Assembly (NCBI RefSeq): GCF_014695585.1
Contig: NZ_JACJON010000041.1
Location: 1-64,000 of the forward strand
Direction of reading: 5' to 3'
DNA length: 64,000 bases
Origin: Microcoleus sp. FACHB-831
Lineage (GTDB): Bacteria > Cyanobacteriota > Cyanobacteriia > Cyanobacteriales > FACHB-T130
Position numbers and translations under genes: made by a program. Positions 38,198 through 45,327 of the stretch are shown here, in pieces; within the stretch, counting starts at the first letter, position 1, and every line of letters begins with the position of its first letter. The notes under the pieces were generated by a model, which searched no databases, was not told the DNA's origin, and saw only the letters and a program-made list of their open reading frames with translations.

Positions 38198-38842
38198 TTA
38201 AGATAAGTGACAGAATATTTGAATTGCTTGCCAAATTTCAGGTAGGACGTTACCGAGGGCGTGATCGCTCTCTAGTTCAATTAACTCCACCCAAGGACGT
38301 TGAGTAGCAAATTCTTGGCTAGCTGAAATGGGGATAACTTCATCTTCCCGACCGTGCAGTATTAAGGTGGGAATTGGACGCTGTAGCTGTTCGTCTTGAT
38401 ACTGCGCGGCGTCTAGAACGAATTGATAATTTAGGGGGAGCGATCGCTTCTCGCCATAATGATAAACAGATAAAAATTGCTCTGTCTGCCAGCGTTGCAG
38501 TTGTTCTTCCCCCAATTTAGGCAACCAGTGAGAGAGAAACCCAAAAGCTGGAGCAAGTAAAACTAAGCGCTGCACTTGGGGATATTTTTGTGCCACCCAT
38601 GCAGATGTTAAACCGCCTAAACTCGAACCAATTAAAGTTACTGGCATCCCATCGGAGGGGAATTCCGCAGCGACTTGTTGAAACTGGCGCGTTAGAGTTA
38701 AGCCAGAGAAATCACCTTGATTGAGATCGGGGATAGAGAGGGGAATATCCAGGGAAGAGAAGCGATCGCGCACATACAATGCTTTAGCAGATAGCGGACT
38801 AGAAGCGAATCCATGCAAATAAATGTAACTTGTAGTATGCAT
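38198..38842 (-). CDS. YqiA-like alpha/beta hydrolase (esterase)
   Basis: 214 residues. YLHGFASSPLSAKA is the oxyanion-hole region, Ser in LIGSSLGGLTSAW the nucleophile, Asp in LHGREDEVIP and His in ESDHALGN complete the triad. It resembles the YqiA/YcfP (UPF0227) group of small esterases. Substrate unknown. It is just downstream of the MacB-like permease, 29 bases away, and may be in the same transcript. Confidence 0.87.
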   Translation of the reverse strand: MHTTSYIYLHGFASSPLSAKALYVRDRFSSLDIPLSIPDLNQGDFSGLTLTRQFQQVAAEFPSDGMPVTLIGSSLGGLTSAWVAQKYPQVQRLVLLAPAFGFLSHWLPKLGEEQLQRWQTEQFLSVYHYGEKRSLPLNYQFVLDAAQYQDEQLQRPIPTLILHGREDEVIPISASQEFATQRPWVELIELESDHALGNVLPEIWQAIQIFCHLS

Positions 38843-38871: not shown

Positions 38872-40086
38872 TCAGGAACTTCGCAACGCTACAATCGGAT
38901 CTAGCCTAGCAGCTTGTCTAGCGGGAATCACCCCAAAAAATAGACCGATACCGCCAGATACACCAACTGCAAGAGCGATCGCTCCTAAAGAAAGCCCCCC
39001 TTTAAGAGGAGTATAAATTCCAATCACAACAATAGAACCCGCTCCGAGTAACGTACCGATCGCACCCCCAACCAGGGATAGAATCATTGCTTCAATTAGA
39101 AACTGCTGCAAAATATCAAATCGCGTAGCTCCCAGTGCCTTGCGTAAGCCAATTTCCGCAGTACGTTCTGTTACCGAAGCTAACATGATATTCATAATTC
39201 CAATACCCCCAACAAACAGGGAAATACCAGCCGTAGAACCCAACAACAACGTTAAAGCACCAGTAACATTATTAGCAGCAGCTAGAGCATCAGCTTGGTT
39301 GCGTACAGTAAAGTCATCTTCACCAGAAATTTTATGGCGCAGGCGCAGTAAATTAGTCACTTGATATTCTGCTATATCCACATTCTCTTCATTAATAGCA
39401 GTTACTGCAATAGAATTAACAGCAATTCCATAGGGTGAAGTTCTTCCCACCAAAAGACTTGACGCAGTAGTAATGGGAACAAATGCCGATTCATCCTGAC
39501 TATTCCCAGCGCTAGCGCCTTTTTCTATCATTACTCCAATTACCTGGAAACTACCGTTATTCAGGCGCACGCTTTCACCAATAGGAGAACGATCCCCAAA
39601 TAGTTCAACTGCTAGTTGAGAACCTAAAACTACTACACGGCTATTGCGTTCTACATCTGGTGCGGTAAAAAAACGTCCTGAATCTACTGGAAAATTACGC
39701 ACGCTCACAAAAGCTGGCAGCGTTCCAATGACGCTAGTTTGCTTGGCGTTGCTGCCATAACTAACTAATGCTTGACTGCTAATTTGTGGAGCAACTTCTT
39801 TAACTGAGGGAACTTGCGATTCTATAGCACTGGCATCAGCCAAAACTAAAGTATTTTGTCTCTGGCTACCGCGTCGAACATCACCGCTTCCGGGAAATAC
39901 ATATAGAAGATTTGTGCCTAAAGATTGAAGCTGTTCTGTGGTATATTTCTGCGCTCCTTGTCCCACTCCCACCATTGCAATTACTGAGGCATTGCCTATA
40001 ATAATTCCTAAAACGGTTAATAAACTCCGCAGACGATTTGCTGAGAGCGTTTTTACCGCCATTGTTACGCTTTCTGAAATATCCAT
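38872..40086 (-). CDS. MacB-type ABC transporter permease (no ATPase domain)
   Basis: About 404 residues from the ATG at 40086. A first membrane helix (about 20-42: SLLTVLGIIIGNASVIAMVG), a large periplasmic domain and three C-terminal helices, with the FtsX/MacB signature ASVTERTAEIGLRKALGATR. The longer open frame (MIPNSPFP...) is translated repeat. The partner upstream is a MacA-like adaptor. In known MacB and DevCA systems an ATPase is fused or adjacent; here none is encoded between or beside them, so it must come from elsewhere. Confidence 0.9.
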   Translation of the reverse strand: MDISESVTMAVKTLSANRLRSLLTVLGIIIGNASVIAMVGVGQGAQKYTTEQLQSLGTNLLYVFPGSGDVRRGSQRQNTLVLADASAIESQVPSVKEVAPQISSQALVSYGSNAKQTSVIGTLPAFVSVRNFPVDSGRFFTAPDVERNSRVVVLGSQLAVELFGDRSPIGESVRLNNGSFQVIGVMIEKGASAGNSQDESAFVPITTASSLLVGRTSPYGIAVNSIAVTAINEENVDIAEYQVTNLLRLRHKISGEDDFTVRNQADALAAANNVTGALTLLLGSTAGISLFVGGIGIMNIMLASVTERTAEIGLRKALGATRFDILQQFLIEAMILSLVGGAIGTLLGAGSIVVIGIYTPLKGGLSLGAIALAVGVSGGIGLFFGVIPARQAARLDPIVALRSS

Positions 40087-40238
40087 AATTGGGAATGGGG
40101 AATTGGGAATCAAAACCGCGTGTCATTCTTTACTACATTTTGAGCAGGCGATCGCTCCACTACATTTCGCTCAGAATGACATCTTTATAGCGATGCTGGG
40201 AAACATTTAAAAATGAACTATTAACGCTGAATAAAATA

Positions 40239-41732
40239 TTACCTAAATCTTACAGGCAACCCGCCGCCGCCGGCTCCTCCTCTTCCACCACTACCACCAG
40301 ATCGAGATCTGGGGGATCTCTGTACATAGACAAACACTTGCTCTCCCGGCTCTAAACCTTCCAAAATTTGAGTTTGATCTCCTAGTGAAAAGCCTAGTGT
40401 AACTGGCTGGAATTGGGGTTGTTGATTGGCGTCGGGAACCATAACTCCAGTTTTGCCTTTTTGAGTAATAATGGCAACAGTAGGCACAACAACGGCATCT
40501 TTAATGCTTTCACCTACAAAAGTTAGGTCAAGATTCATCCCCGCTCGGAGTTTATTTTGACCAGTTTCTAGAGATATCCGCACTTGAAAAGAAGTAACGT
40601 TTTGCTCGACAACTGCCGCTGGCGCAATTAATCGCACCTTCCCGCGAAACTTTTCTCCCGGAAAGGCATCTGCTTTAACCTCGACTGTTTGATTGAGGCG
40701 AATTTGACCGATATCTCTTTCTGGTACTTTGGCTAGAACTTCTAGATTGTTAGCGATCGCCACAATAGAACTAGAAGTTGCTGAAGATGTAGAAGAAGCT
40801 GAAGTAGTTGGAGTCACAAAAGCGCCTACATTGGCATACTTTTGCGTAATAGTACCGCTGAAAGGCGCTGTAATTATTGTGTCAGTTTGTTGCACTTGAA
40901 CAGCTTTTAACTGAGCTTTGGCTTGAGCTACTAAAGCTTTATTTTGGGCGATTTCTTCTGGACGAGTGCCATTCAAAAGTTGTTGTAGCGCTTGGCGTGC
41001 TTCTGCAACAGCGGCTTCGGCTTGGATAATTTGCTCTCGGCGAGTACCGTTGCGAAGCAAATCTACTTTCTTCTGAGCTTGTTGAAGATTAGCTTGAGCA
41101 TTGCGCTCGTTTGTTAAAACTTCATCGAGTTGATCTTGAGCGATCGCTCCACTCTGAGCCAATTGCTGATATCTAGTAGTGCGTTCTTTTGTTAGGTTAA
41201 GTTGCGCTTGCGCTGCATTTACTTGAGATTGTGCTTGAAAAATTTCTTCTGGACGACTACCAGCTTTTGACTCAGCTAGCTTTGCTTCAGCTTGTGCCAG
41301 ACGCGATCGCGCCTGAGCAATTTCTGTAGGACGACTACCAGCGATCGCCAGAGCCAGACGCGCCTCTGCTTGGTCTACATTAGCCGCAGCTTGGGCAATT
41401 TGGGCTTGAATTTCTGCATCTTCCATCCGAGCAATTATTTGCCCTTGTTGTACCTTATCTCCTTGCTCGACTAAAAGCTGTGCTATTCGACCAGATCGTG
41501 TGGGACTTAAATTAACCTCTTTTATAGGTATTGCCGTACCGCTAGCACTAATCTTGACGCCCAAATCTTGTGTTTTTACTTCTACTGTTAACCCCTTCTG
41601 GCGCTGTGTCGGTTGTTTGTTAACAAACTGGGTATAAGCAAAAAATCCCCCACTTCCAATTAGCGTTGTTAGAACTAATCCAACCAGCCAACGTGGGGGT
41701 TTATCAACTTTGCCAATTAGGGGAATTTTCAT
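40239..41732 (-). CDS. MacA-like periplasmic adaptor (membrane fusion protein)
   Basis: 497 residues from the ATG at 41732. One N-terminal membrane helix (WLVGLVLTTLIGSGGFFAY), a lipoyl half-motif, a long coiled-coil hairpin (about 95-275) built of four similar units beginning G(S/T)R(P/R)xEI, then beta-barrel domains and a Gly/Arg-rich C-terminus (SGGSGGRGGAGGGG). It links an inner-membrane pump to an outer-membrane channel. It lies directly upstream of the MacB-like permease and downstream of a sigma factor/Spy cluster. The MTNEQW extension upstream is translated repeat. Confidence 0.92.
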   Translation of the reverse strand: MKIPLIGKVDKPPRWLVGLVLTTLIGSGGFFAYTQFVNKQPTQRQKGLTVEVKTQDLGVKISASGTAIPIKEVNLSPTRSGRIAQLLVEQGDKVQQGQIIARMEDAEIQAQIAQAAANVDQAEARLALAIAGSRPTEIAQARSRLAQAEAKLAESKAGSRPEEIFQAQSQVNAAQAQLNLTKERTTRYQQLAQSGAIAQDQLDEVLTNERNAQANLQQAQKKVDLLRNGTRREQIIQAEAAVAEARQALQQLLNGTRPEEIAQNKALVAQAKAQLKAVQVQQTDTIITAPFSGTITQKYANVGAFVTPTTSASSTSSATSSSIVAIANNLEVLAKVPERDIGQIRLNQTVEVKADAFPGEKFRGKVRLIAPAAVVEQNVTSFQVRISLETGQNKLRAGMNLDLTFVGESIKDAVVVPTVAIITQKGKTGVMVPDANQQPQFQPVTLGFSLGDQTQILEGLEPGEQVFVYVQRSPRSRSGGSGGRGGAGGGGLPVRFR

Positions 41733-42133
41733 TGCCAGCCATTGTTCATTGGTCATTGGTCATTAGTAAGGACAAAGGACTTTTGACAAAGGAGGATTAC
41801 CCATTACAAATTTTTTTAAGTTTAAGTATAACCGGGAAAGATTTAATCACTTTTATTCCTATCTAAGCTTTAATGGGTGCTTAATCTAGTGTAATATCAG
41901 TCCGACGATTGGTTTTAAATCTAATAATTTATGCTAAACTCCACCAATCGCGATCGCTTAATATGGTTAATTAAAATTATCACCCGCCAGCGCTTTTAAG
42001 ATCTGACTAATGGCTTAAGTTATCTTAACAGAACTGACAAAGAGATTTAGTCAATTTTAATAGACTTGAGCTATTAGCCCAGACCTTAATTTCCGGTTGG
42101 GTGAGAGCCTTTAATAAAGAGCTATAACGCTTG
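41733..42133. other. Gene-free stretch between the Spy-like genes and the MacA-like gene
   Basis: 401 bases with a TTGGTCATTGG repeat at the left end. No GGAAC-type ECF -35 box was found on the minus strand, so control of the macAB-like pair by the neighbouring sigma factor is not evident here. Confidence 0.45.
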
Positions 42134-42634
42134 TTAAGGCGCTAATTGAGGCTGTTTATCTCTACTTTTTCCCTGTCGGTTGCGGAAATTTCCTCCCCGC
42201 TTTTTCATCAATTGGTCAAGCTTAGCGCGTTGCTCAGTAGTTAGTTTCTCGCGCATTTCCAACATACTTGAAAAGCGTAAATCCTCAACCTCCTGCCGCA
42301 ACGCTTGAACCTTCTGATGTTGCTGACGGATTTGATCTGAAGAAGCTGTACCCGACATCATCCGGCGCATTTCTTCGGATGCTTGACGCAAATTTTGCTG
42401 GCTAGTTTGCATCCTGTCTTTGTACTTAGCACGAATTGCCTCCATATCGCGAATTTGCTGCTGGTTGAGACCAAGTTGCTGCATAAGCCGAGCCTTACCT
42501 CGCTCCATACGGCCTTGGCCAGGTTGGTTTTGAGCGACAGTTTGGGGAAAATTGGAATTGGGTTTAGCAACAGCAACAGCACTACCGAAAGCAAGAATGA
42601 TAGCTGTTAAAACAGAAACATGACGTAAAAGCAT
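42134..42634 (-). CDS. Spy/CpxP-like periplasmic protein, second copy
   Basis: 166 residues. A signal peptide (VSVLTAIILAFGSAVAVA) is followed by an all-helical body with the LTxxQ-type motifs LGLNQQQIRDMEAI and KLTTEQRAKLDQL. Spy, CpxP, ZraP and CnrX belong here: periplasmic chaperones or stress and metal sensors. It is a tandem paralogue of the gene at 42761 and lies downstream of the ECF sigma and anti-sigma genes. Upstream on the minus strand, GGAACCA (42693-42699) is a possible ECF -35 box. Confidence 0.88.
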   Translation of the reverse strand: MLLRHVSVLTAIILAFGSAVAVAKPNSNFPQTVAQNQPGQGRMERGKARLMQQLGLNQQQIRDMEAIRAKYKDRMQTSQQNLRQASEEMRRMMSGTASSDQIRQQHQKVQALRQEVEDLRFSSMLEMREKLTTEQRAKLDQLMKKRGGNFRNRQGKSRDKQPQLAP

Positions 42635-42760
42635 TGTCTTGAGCGGTGAGGTGATAACTGATATTTTATATTTGATATTTTTTTAATAAAAGTGGTTCCC
42701 CGTTAAGGATAAGGGCTGAACTATCAATTCAGCCTATATCCTTCAGCCTTTACTCAAAAT

Positions 42761-43273
42761 TTATAGGCTTTGAGTTGGCGCTGCTGGAGACTGTTGACCT
42801 CTATTCTTCCCAGTATAGTTACGACGATTTGCTTGCCGATTTTGCTTCATTTCGTCAAACTTGGCTTGTTGCTCTGTAGTCAGTTTGGCGCGGATTTCTG
42901 ACATACTTGCAGATTTTATATCTTGCATTTGCTTCTTCAAACCTTGCATCTTTTGCTGTTGTTGCGCGATCTGATCTGCTGAAGCGTTATTTGTCTTCAA
43001 CTGGCGCATTTCTTGTTTGGCTTGACGCAAGTTTTCCATGATAGGCTGCATCTGGGGTTTGTACTTCTCCTGAATTGCCTGTATATCCTGCACTTGCTGC
43101 GCGTTCAGACCGAGTTGCTGGGTCATCCAATTCTTACCACGTTCTCCGCGCCCTTGACCGGGTTGATTTTGCGCGACTGTTTGCGAAAAATCAAAATTTG
43201 GCTTGGCAACAGCAACAGCGCTACCTAAAGCAACCATCAGAGCGGCTAAAACAGAAACGCGACGTAAAAGCAT
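42761..43273 (-). CDS. Spy/CpxP-like periplasmic protein, first copy
   Basis: 170 residues, closely related to the next gene (signal VSVLAALMVALGSAVAVAKP, mature start TVAQNQPGQGR, motifs LGLNAQQVQDIQAI and KLTTEQQAKFDEM). Gln/Lys-rich helical body; the C-terminus is basic. A periplasmic chaperone or sensor for envelope or metal stress is likely by family. It lies about 110 bases after the anti-sigma gene. Confidence 0.88.
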   Translation of the reverse strand: MLLRRVSVLAALMVALGSAVAVAKPNFDFSQTVAQNQPGQGRGERGKNWMTQQLGLNAQQVQDIQAIQEKYKPQMQPIMENLRQAKQEMRQLKTNNASADQIAQQQQKMQGLKKQMQDIKSASMSEIRAKLTTEQQAKFDEMKQNRQANRRNYTGKNRGQQSPAAPTQSL

Positions 43274-43381
43274 AGTGTTGAGAGCTGAGTTGTTAGTTAA
43301 TAATTGAAAGTCGATTGTTCGTGGTTGATTGTTGATGGCAATGAACCATGAAATTAGGAACGCTAGACAATAGATAGATGC

Positions 43382-43711
43382 TTAATTGATTGGCATCCAA
43401 TCTTCTTCTGGACTATCATCCACGACGCTAGTCCAGTTGTTTTCTAGAAAAGCTTCGAGAGTGCCAGTGTCAACCTGTGCGGTGCGCGGTGTTAGGAAGT
43501 GAGATCCTGCTAAAGCAAAGATTGCACTAGCGGCGATCGCTGGTGTTACTATCCACAACAGCCGACGTTGAGCAGGCGGATCTTGTGAATATGCGAGACT
43601 ACGCATAATCTGCTGTTCTAGATCGGGTGCAGCAGTTGGAGGATCTGGGCGATGCCCGCGCAGAAAATCTACTAAGCGTTTATCGTCCTCATGATGTGGG
43701 AACTTCGTCAT
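43382..43711 (-). CDS. Probable membrane anti-sigma factor
   Basis: 109 residues: a cytoplasmic N-terminus (about 1-48, KRLVDFLRGHRPDPP), one membrane helix (LLWIVTPAIAASAIFALAGS) and a 40-residue acidic periplasmic tail. It overlaps the sigma factor gene by four bases (ATGA), the classical arrangement for ECF sigma/anti-sigma pairs. The zinc-binding HxxxCxxC motif is absent. The function is inferred from context and topology. Confidence 0.75.
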   Translation of the reverse strand: MTKFPHHEDDKRLVDFLRGHRPDPPTAAPDLEQQIMRSLAYSQDPPAQRRLLWIVTPAIAASAIFALAGSHFLTPRTAQVDTGTLEAFLENNWTSVVDDSPEEDWMPIN

Positions 43712-44322
43712 GGCTGAACTCCTTGTTTTTGAAGGAATTGTCGCATTGCGTCACGCGCATGGAACAGGCGAGACTTGACGGTTCCCACCGGAATCCCTAG
43801 AATCTGCGCTACCTCTTTTTGCGGCACATCCTCCAAGTCATGCAGAACCAGTACAGCGCGATGTTCTAAACTAATTTGAGCGAGGCCGCGTTGCACCAAA
43901 TCCTGATAGTGTAGATGCATCAAATCGGGGGCTTCCTGTTCGACTGGTTGCGTTTTGCTCAGAGTTTGCCTCTGGGTGTTGGCTTGAGCAAAGTGTCGCC
44001 GCTGATCGGAGGCGACATTCCACGCTATGCGATAAAGCCAGGTGGAAAATTGGGATGCCTGCCGCAGATTTGGCAATCCTTTCCAGGCGCGGAGGAAAAC
44101 TTCTTGCACCAAATCATCTAGGTGTGATGCACCAGAAAGTTGGTAAAGGGCGGATCTGACTCGTTGCTGATGACGGTGGTAGAGTTGTCGGAAACTTTGC
44201 GTGTCTCCCTCTTTGCACCGCTTTATTAGGTAAGCATCGGTGTCGCGAGCAGATTTGTCGCTGGGTTGTTCGCTTGTTAGCCCATCGAATGGTACAGACG
44301 GCACCGATTGCATCTCCCTCAC
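43708..44322 (-). CDS. ECF-type RNA polymerase sigma factor
   Basis: 204 residues. Region 2 (about 30-100: FRQLYHRHQQRVRSALYQLS, DDLVQEVFLRAWKGL, FSTWLYRIAWNVASDQRR) and region 4 (about 140-195, with the helix-turn-helix KEVAQILGIPVGTVKSRLFH) are complete. Start GTG 44322 or ATG 44313. It resembles the cyanobacterial SigG/RpoE-like ECF factors. It overlaps the anti-sigma gene and is preceded by a near-consensus ECF promoter, so it probably activates its own operon. Confidence 0.93.
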   Translation of the reverse strand: MREMQSVPSVPFDGLTSEQPSDKSARDTDAYLIKRCKEGDTQSFRQLYHRHQQRVRSALYQLSGASHLDDLVQEVFLRAWKGLPNLRQASQFSTWLYRIAWNVASDQRRHFAQANTQRQTLSKTQPVEQEAPDLMHLHYQDLVQRGLAQISLEHRAVLVLHDLEDVPQKEVAQILGIPVGTVKSRLFHARDAMRQFLQKQGVQP

Positions 44323-44338
44323 CAGTTTGTTCTATGGA

Positions 44339-44367
44339 TTAGACCCAGGTGGTAAGAAAAAGGTTCA
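44339..44367 (-). promoter_or_regulatory. Putative ECF-sigma promoter of the sigma factor operon
   Basis: On the minus strand TGAACCT (44367-44361) is followed by a 16-bp spacer and GTCTAA (44344-44339). This closely fits the sigma-E class -35 GGAACTT and -10 GTCTGA. The RNA would start about 10-15 bases before the GTG start codon. Autoregulation is inferred. Confidence 0.6.
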
Positions 44368-44379
44368 AGGGCGATCGCG

Positions 44380-45327
44380 CTAATCCTGTCGTCGCGCATA
44401 AAACCCCAAATGGTTAGCAATGGGACGCTGGCGCATGGGGATGCGCGTGTGAATAGGTGAGTTGAGCGATCGCGTCCCCGAAGCATTAGCAACTACCAGC
44501 GTTGTCGATCCGCCGCCGTCCAAGTTCAGCGCTTTATAAGCACCCAACTCCATCACAATATCTGTCAGTTCAGGCAAGGTCATACCCTCGCTATATTTAG
44601 TCTGACGACCATCAACAATAATTAGCCACAATTTCTCGCCGCTTTTATCAATAGCTACGGCGGTGCGCGGATACAGATCGTTCTTGGTGGGATTATCTTT
44701 TAGCACCACAGGCTTACCGCCATCAACAAAAACATCACCACCCGACAATGCTTGAACTGCACTCTTTTCGCAACTTTCTCGACGGATTTGGACGCGGTTA
44801 TCAGGTGCAAAACACAACACAGTCGAGTCTGACTGGCTAGATGAATAGCTATTTCCATTTGAGATAACTTGCCCGAATACGCTCACTGGTTCGCCGTTGT
44901 GGGGGTAATAATCCAACGGCCCGTTTTCACGAAATGGGCCAAAAAAGCTGCCATTAATAGCGAGTTGCAACTTAAACTCTTTAACAAAATCAGAGGTAGT
45001 TTGCGCCCTCAACTCATATGGCTGCCCGGTTTGCTTGTCCCACCCGTTTGGTTTTCCCGGTGTCACCAAAACCCCAATTCCCGGTGCGGTTAGGTCAATG
45101 GTAACGATGTGAATTGTATTTGGGCGTGGCGTTGAACGGGCAAAACGCCGATAAAAGATACCCTGAAATAGTTGTTGCTGCGTCTCGGTGCGGGGGGGAC
45201 GGCTTAGAAGTAACGCACCATAAATTAATAAGAGTAGTAGCGGTATCCCCAAGATAGTCAGGGAAACGGCGATCGCGGCTCGCTTCAGGGTGATTTTTGG
45301 TCGTTTGCTCATGCTGGTAAGCTTCAT
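44380..45327 (-). CDS. Membrane-anchored phosphodiester glycosidase (NAGPA) domain protein
   Basis: 315 residues. One N-terminal membrane helix (about 18-42), then a NAGPA domain with LAINGSFFGP, AVAIDKSGEKLWLIIVDGRQ and ALNLDGGGSTTLVV. The family includes the enzyme that uncovers mannose-6-phosphate; in bacteria it acts on cell-wall or exopolysaccharide phosphodiesters. Its C-terminus lies 35 bases upstream of the ECF promoter. Exact substrate unknown. Confidence 0.88.
   Translation of the reverse strand: MKLTSMSKRPKITLKRAAIAVSLTILGIPLLLLLIYGALLLSRPPRTETQQQLFQGIFYRRFARSTPRPNTIHIVTIDLTAPGIGVLVTPGKPNGWDKQTGQPYELRAQTTSDFVKEFKLQLAINGSFFGPFRENGPLDYYPHNGEPVSVFGQVISNGNSYSSSQSDSTVLCFAPDNRVQIRRESCEKSAVQALSGGDVFVDGGKPVVLKDNPTKNDLYPRTAVAIDKSGEKLWLIIVDGRQTKYSEGMTLPELTDIVMELGAYKALNLDGGGSTTLVVANASGTRSLNSPIHTRIPMRQRPIANHLGFYARRQD

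Follow-up and report, generated by a model that had tools for sequence, protein, structure and literature searches.

We analysed a 64,000-nucleotide stretch of the Microcoleus sp. FACHB-831 genome (contig NZ_JACJON010000041.1, positions 1 to 64,000; hereafter the window), focusing on a minus-strand gene cluster headed by an extracytoplasmic function (ECF) sigma factor. The original prediction had described six minus-strand open reading frames (ORFs) here, encoding the sigma factor, a probable anti-sigma factor, two Spy-like periplasmic proteins and a MacA-MacB-like pair, and all six are present at the coordinates given in Table 1. Domain annotation of the window ORFs with Pfam and NCBIfam found Sigma70_r2 and r4_2 in the sigma factor, that is, regions 2 and 4 only, as expected of an ECF protein. 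The sigma and anti-sigma ORFs overlap by 4 bp, and the latter encodes a single-pass membrane protein of 109 residues that matched zero Pfam or NCBIfam models. Both Spy-like proteins contain LTXXQ (PF07813) above gathering score. The MacA-like adaptor has HlyD_D23/RND_mfp domains; the MacB-like permease is made up of MacB_PCD and FtsX with no ATPase (nucleotide-binding) domain, and no ATPase gene was found at the window MacA-MacB locus.

Table 1. Genes and other features at the sigma factor locus, in window coordinates
Feature	Position	Strand	Remarks
NAGPA-domain gene (phosphodiester glycosidase)	44380-45327	-	between glutathione reductase-like gene and sigH
Predicted sigma-H promoter TTGAACCTTTTTCTTACCACCTGGGTCTAA	44339..44368	-	-35 TGAACC, 17 bases, -10 GTCTAA; putative autoregulation site
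SigH-type ECF sigma factor	43708..44322	-	start GTG 44322 as called, ATG 44313 possible; NF009171; Synechocystis synteny
Probable anti-sigma factor	43382..43711	-	profile conservation and predicted model
Spy/LTXXQ periplasmic protein 1	42761..43273	-	conserved third gene; candidate sensor/chaperone
RNA hairpin between spy genes	42705..42743	-	-23 kcal/mol, z -3.4, weak T-rich tail
Spy/LTXXQ periplasmic protein 2	42134..42634	-	lineage-specific tandem duplicate of Spy 1
MacA-like periplasmic adaptor	40239..41756	-	second paralogue in genome; outside conserved operon
MacB-like permease without ATPase domain	38872..40113	-	second paralogue in genome
UPF0227 alpha/beta hydrolase (esterase)	38198..38842	-	right edge of inserted spy2-macA-macB block

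Gene neighbourhoods were compared across 81 loci, namely the window and 80 cyanobacterial loci sampled at roughly one per genus, using iterated profiles for the neighbours. The anti-sigma ORF had a profile match immediately 3' of the sigma gene in 80 of the 81 loci, usually with the 4-bp overlap, and a Spy/LTXXQ protein came next in 77, one of the misses being truncated at a contig end. A second sample, of 80 named genomes, placed the anti-sigma gene behind the sigma gene in 79 cases and Spy in 77. The linkage that the original prediction had read from a single genome is therefore kept in other cyanobacteria, beyond what chance would give, and the conserved unit, across most of the lineages sampled, is sigma, anti-sigma and spy. 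A UPF0227 esterase gene stands behind Spy in about 20 loci, at the third or fourth position after sigma in most loci that hold it. In two loci from the same family (L100 and L101) the order is glutathione reductase-like gene, sigma, anti-sigma, Spy and esterase, with the reductase directly upstream of the sigma gene. The window has the same order with two additions: the NAGPA gene between reductase and sigma, and a block of spy2, MacA and MacB between Spy and the esterase that is normally next to it.

The window sigma factor scores 300 bits on the equivalog NF009171/PRK12518 (cut-off 208), and its type occurs as a single copy in 143 of 291 genomes of the class (E<=1e-25). At the Synechocystis salina locus (L118) the gene order, ClC - sigma - anti-sigma - Spy - photolyase, fits what we take to be sll0855 - sll0856 (sigH) - sll0857 - sll0858 - slr0854 in strain PCC 6803. 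The taxonomic spread agrees with the SigH row in Table 1 of an earlier review, in which Nostoc-type strains lack the factor and unicellular as well as many filamentous groups have it (PMC2758279); in family f6, taken as Nostoc-like, the window type was found in G221 only among the listed genomes. On these sequence comparisons we assign the window sigma factor to the SigH type (Synechocystis Sll0856), not to SigG. Our first idea had been SigG/SapG, a known cyanobacterial ECF/anti-sigma pair with conserved order whose SigG occurs in all reviewed strains (PMC2758279). That the locus is this envelope-stress pair now seems very improbable, because the same genome carries separate ECF genes (L002, L003 and L004), among which the SigG-like L002 has another anti-sigma-like protein behind it and scores 114 bits on NF009171, below the cut-off, and because most f6 genomes lack the window type whereas SigG is found in every strain reviewed. 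The ECF factor of L003 (contig C39) is very similar to L002, with no anti-sigma ORF alongside it within a 3.5-kb stretch.

The motif GAAC[CT]-N17-GTCT lies upstream of the sigma gene at exact spacing in 64 of the 81 loci (shuffled sequences gave a mean of 0.2 and a maximum of 2), and only the spacing of 17 is enriched. A promoter motif was likewise present at 72 of 80 sigH loci in the named genomes. The consensus, TTGAACCTTT-N14-GTCTAA with fixed spacing, resembles promoters of the RpoE type, as does the sequence at the PsigH-73 start site of PCC 6803 (PMC2758279). When the window was scanned with a position weight matrix (PWM), a single site was found, at 44368-44339 with 30.4 bits, the next best reaching 6.2 bits. 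The best reading of these patterns is that sigH is autoregulated, as predicted from TTGAACCTTT-N14-GTCTAA.

We then scanned 291 genomes, 143 with sigH and 148 without, for a strict form of the promoter pattern, with the reversed pattern as control. There were 60 matches against 2 for the control, and the pattern was present in 47 of 143 genomes with sigH as compared with 1 of 148 without it (Fisher, 1e-15). The matches were sorted by position and downstream ORFs, with Pfam and NCBIfam searches to confirm a subset of the products. They precede sigH itself (27), stand-alone Spy/LTXXQ genes (15), group-2 sigma genes (8), MacA(-MacB) (3), an HlyD adaptor with an RND pump (1), a CtpC-like protease (1), small proteins with signal-like N termini (3) and others (2). 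Upon envelope damage SigH is thus predicted to raise a second sigma factor as well as Spy chaperones and components of efflux pumps. The window genome has two credible promoter sites, before sigH and before a group-2 sigma gene (NF004615); a stand-alone Spy like that of relatives was sought there and none was found, in a search that had no positive control.

Two further observations concern the group-2 sigma gene. In f6 genomes that lack sigH (L328, L333, L337, L338 and others), GGGAACC-N17-GTCT lies about 157 nt before it, a motif related to the sigma-H promoter but distinct from it, which suggests that another ECF factor, perhaps SigG, may have taken over the gene. In L325, L327 and L330 (genus g50, counted among genomes without sigH), TGAATCTTTT-N13-GTCTAA precedes it at about 21 bits.

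MacA-MacB lies beside the operon in the window only, among the 81 loci, so that treating the pair as a fixed part of the system, and all six genes as one system, was an over-reading of which only the first three genes survive as a recurring unit. A six-gene operon with MacA-MacB as a designed output of the locus seems to us rather doubtful. The genes do share a strand, no terminator-like site was called on the minus strand between spy2 and macA, predicted sigma-H promoters precede MacA-MacB elsewhere (G119, G265 and G240), and an HlyD and RND pair stands behind Spy in L051. However, a 377-bp gap separates spy2 from macA, the PWM scan of the window found no sigma-H site before spy2, macA or macB, and the hairpin, possibly an attenuator or 3'-end stabiliser, interrupts spy1 and spy2; moreover, the other MacA-MacB copy in the genome (L278, contig C25) has an ATPase gene, whereas the window pair has none. 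A MacB tree puts the window copy on a long branch that groups with sigma-H-driven MacB copies (0.96 support), a grouping that is weak and open to long-branch effects, and the MacA identities point the opposite way. An efflux link does recur: the adjoining MacA-MacB pair is particular to this genome, and predicted sigma-H promoters precede MacA-MacB or RND pump operons in a few others. The L051 locus (G288) offers another example of a pump adjoining the operon, with the HlyD adaptor and an RND pump of 1037 aa immediately behind spy.

An AlphaFold2 model of the small membrane protein has cytoplasmic helices at residues 7-19 and 31-41, a transmembrane segment at 47-73 and a periplasmic helix at 82-97, and its homologues share a cytoplasmic motif and a periplasmic LExFxxxxW. 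Two helices also serve CnrY to embrace its sigma factor (PMC4598750), and the model suggests that the small protein is probably an anti-sigma factor with a CnrY-type helix layout. Deep-branching homologues (L058, L071, L076, L079, L083 and L085) lack LExFxxxxW and end in FAxDPxTxLYxVRF.

The best matches of the Spy model (predicted local distance difference test, pLDDT, 81.8) among solved structures in Foldseek were CnrX, then NccX, CpxP and ZraP, at weak E-values of about 0.01 upwards, and sequence-profile matches in the PDB were Spy, a VirG-like protein and ZraP. The comparison with the Cnr system made in the original prediction is therefore apt in architecture, with a Spy fold closest to CnrX and an anti-sigma factor modelled in the CnrY-type layout. 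Its two Spy proteins find no support as a design feature: Spy 1 and Spy 2 are 58% identical and each is at most about 50% identical to relatives, so the duplication appears recent and local. Nor is CnrX-style metal sensing mirrored here. The Spy family has no conserved set of His or Cys, Spy 1 has zero of either and carries a Gln where the family has its single semi-conserved His (55%), and on this basis no ligand site of the CnrX type (His/Glu/Met) is seen in Spy. Because no His/Cys set is conserved, we infer a folding or envelope-integrity signal over metal binding of the CnrX type. A strict metal response, in which the Spy-like protein would be a receptor for zinc or some other cation, like CnrX for Ni/Co, and the pumps would serve metal efflux, could draw on CnrX being the top structural match, on the recurrence of pump genes among the predicted targets, and on the finding that sigH and its co-transcribed next ORF were among the very few genes to rise in Synechococcus PCC 7002 at high zinc (PMC4628125). 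Set against these are the missing ligands, a predicted target set in which chaperones stand beside a protease and a general sigma factor, and the lowering of sigH by copper in PCC 6803 (PMC4182526), and we judge such a response unlikely, although a metal may still act as a trigger.

Building on the computed gene linkage, promoter, predicted targets and folds, we consider it likely that sigH, the anti-sigma gene and spy form an autoregulated circuit for envelope stress, resembling CnrYXH in design and using a protein of the CnrX/CpxP fold in which no metal ligands are conserved. In the unstressed cell the two cytoplasmic helices at the N terminus of the small membrane protein would hold SigH, as in CnrY, and the short periplasmic helix (LExFxxxxW) of the same protein would be open to contact by the Spy-like protein. 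Once heat, zinc or toxic compounds cause envelope proteins to misfold, Spy would be drawn to clients or change state, the anti-sigma factor would free SigH, and SigH RNA polymerase would transcribe from TTGAACCTTT-N14-GTCTAA; the extra Spy and anti-sigma factor would close the loop. The window genome has two copies of spy with a MacA-MacB paralogue behind them, and read-through could place that pair under SigH. Induction of sigH late in heat has been reported (PMC3264485).

How Spy takes part is less settled. In the sensor version, the operon Spy would bind the LExFxxxxW helix, and SigH would be freed as misfolded envelope proteins titrate Spy away, a tentative proposal that we rate as less likely than not. 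Its main rival makes Spy an output only: the anti-sigma factor would sense stress by another route, such as regulated cleavage of its short tail or a redox, lipid or metal signal, and the linked Spy would be just the first of the chaperones to be made, giving feedback at most; we allow this a substantial chance, somewhat short of even. Stand-alone Spy genes are the commonest non-self promoter targets (15 of 33), and the Spy of E. coli acts purely as an effector, under Cpx/Bae. Yet retention of Spy right behind the anti-sigma gene in 77 of 81 loci exceeds what would be expected of an effector able to sit elsewhere under its own promoter, and the short periplasmic tail is conserved, as a mere linker would not have to be.

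Several observations weigh against the proposed circuit or against Spy as its sensor. Stand-alone Spy proteins are themselves predicted targets, so Spy may be an effector only. Three loci (L050, L061 and L116) retain sigma and anti-sigma with no detected Spy, and two of them keep the anti-sigma tail motif or a close form, which also favours an output-only Spy; the Trp is lost in the third, and tail loss without Spy allows no conclusion. The anti-sigma model is of moderate confidence (pLDDT 75.5; predicted template modelling score 0.27), and its profile found no match at E<=1 among PDB chains, which include CnrY and other solved anti-sigma factors. About 20% of sigH loci are without a strict promoter match. 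Among orthologous group-2 sigma genes the site was present in 13 of 30 genomes with sigH and 4 of 30 without, a moderate difference (p 0.02), and the group-2 sigma link therefore appears lineage-dependent. Finally, a Synechocystis sigH mutant tolerated every condition tested (PMC3264485).

The circuit can be placed among known systems. Like CnrYXH of Cupriavidus metallidurans and Ncc, it combines an ECF sigma factor, a single-pass anti-sigma factor with two short cytoplasmic helices, a periplasmic helical-hairpin protein of the CnrX/CpxP fold and a possible efflux link. Unlike CnrYXH, it is ordered sigma, anti-sigma, Spy, lacks conserved metal ligands and has an anti-sigma factor without a sequence match to CnrY; its predicted targets are mainly chaperones and stress regulators, and its sigma factor matches RpoE/SigW structures far better than CnrH. 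Cpx/Bae of E. coli likewise has Spy/CpxP-fold proteins (CpxP, Spy) among the outputs of envelope stress, with a possible second role as feedback sensors, although it is a two-component system and the window encodes an ECF sigma/anti-sigma pair. An envelope-stress ECF sigma factor with a membrane anti-sigma factor also recalls E. coli RpoE/RseA and cyanobacterial SigG/SapG, and the promoter is RpoE-like in its -35 GAAC and GTCTAA-type -10; the window anti-sigma factor, unlike RseA, has no RseA-like four-helix or zinc domain, and the sigma factor is a paralogue distinct from SigG, its strict promoter being missing, with at most the one exception counted above, from SigG-bearing genomes that lack SigH. 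The MacA-like adaptor and MacB-like periplasmic core/FtsX permease resemble MacAB-TolC, except that the locus has no ATPase domain or gene.

The sigma factor itself corresponds to cyanobacterial SigH (Sll0856, SYNPCC7002_A2111, Tlr0317), with which it shares the Synechocystis neighbourhood, the taxonomic pattern and the NF009171 pass. Nothing was known of SigH-controlled genes at the time of a 2009 review (PMC2758279), and the gene transcribed together with it was described as obscure in a later study. SigH is already known, as is the joint transcript with the next ORF, published for PCC 7002 (PMC4628125); the trio and its conservation, the promoter and the predicted targets are new, in that they were not found in the literature searched, and key papers beyond that search could anticipate parts. 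The SigH work covered by that search names no targets, promoter consensus, anti-sigma factor or Spy partner, all of which are proposed here, and does not mention sll0858.

SigH, one of a small number of sigma factors in cyanobacteria for which no targets are known, becomes a testable envelope-stress regulator, with Synechocystis PCC 6803 and Synechococcus PCC 7002 as immediate test beds, and the circuit may explain the rise of sigH in zinc-treated PCC 7002. If Spy is the sensor, the trio would be an ECF counterpart to CpxP, and the CnrX fold would report protein folding as well as metal. Were sensing by chaperone occupancy correct, it would control a sigma-H regulon not mapped before, one that extends across the cyanobacteria and takes in Spy chaperones and efflux pumps together with a protease and a cascade through a group-2 sigma factor.

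A pair of genes of about 500 and 406 aa after Spy in several genomes had been taken for MacA-MacB by size, and was set aside when phmmer and blastp gave no homology to MacA or MacB. This pair recurs behind the sigH, anti-sigma and spy genes in distant lineages (L047, L055, L059, L062 and L102), and its products look DUF1800/DUF1501-like by eye.

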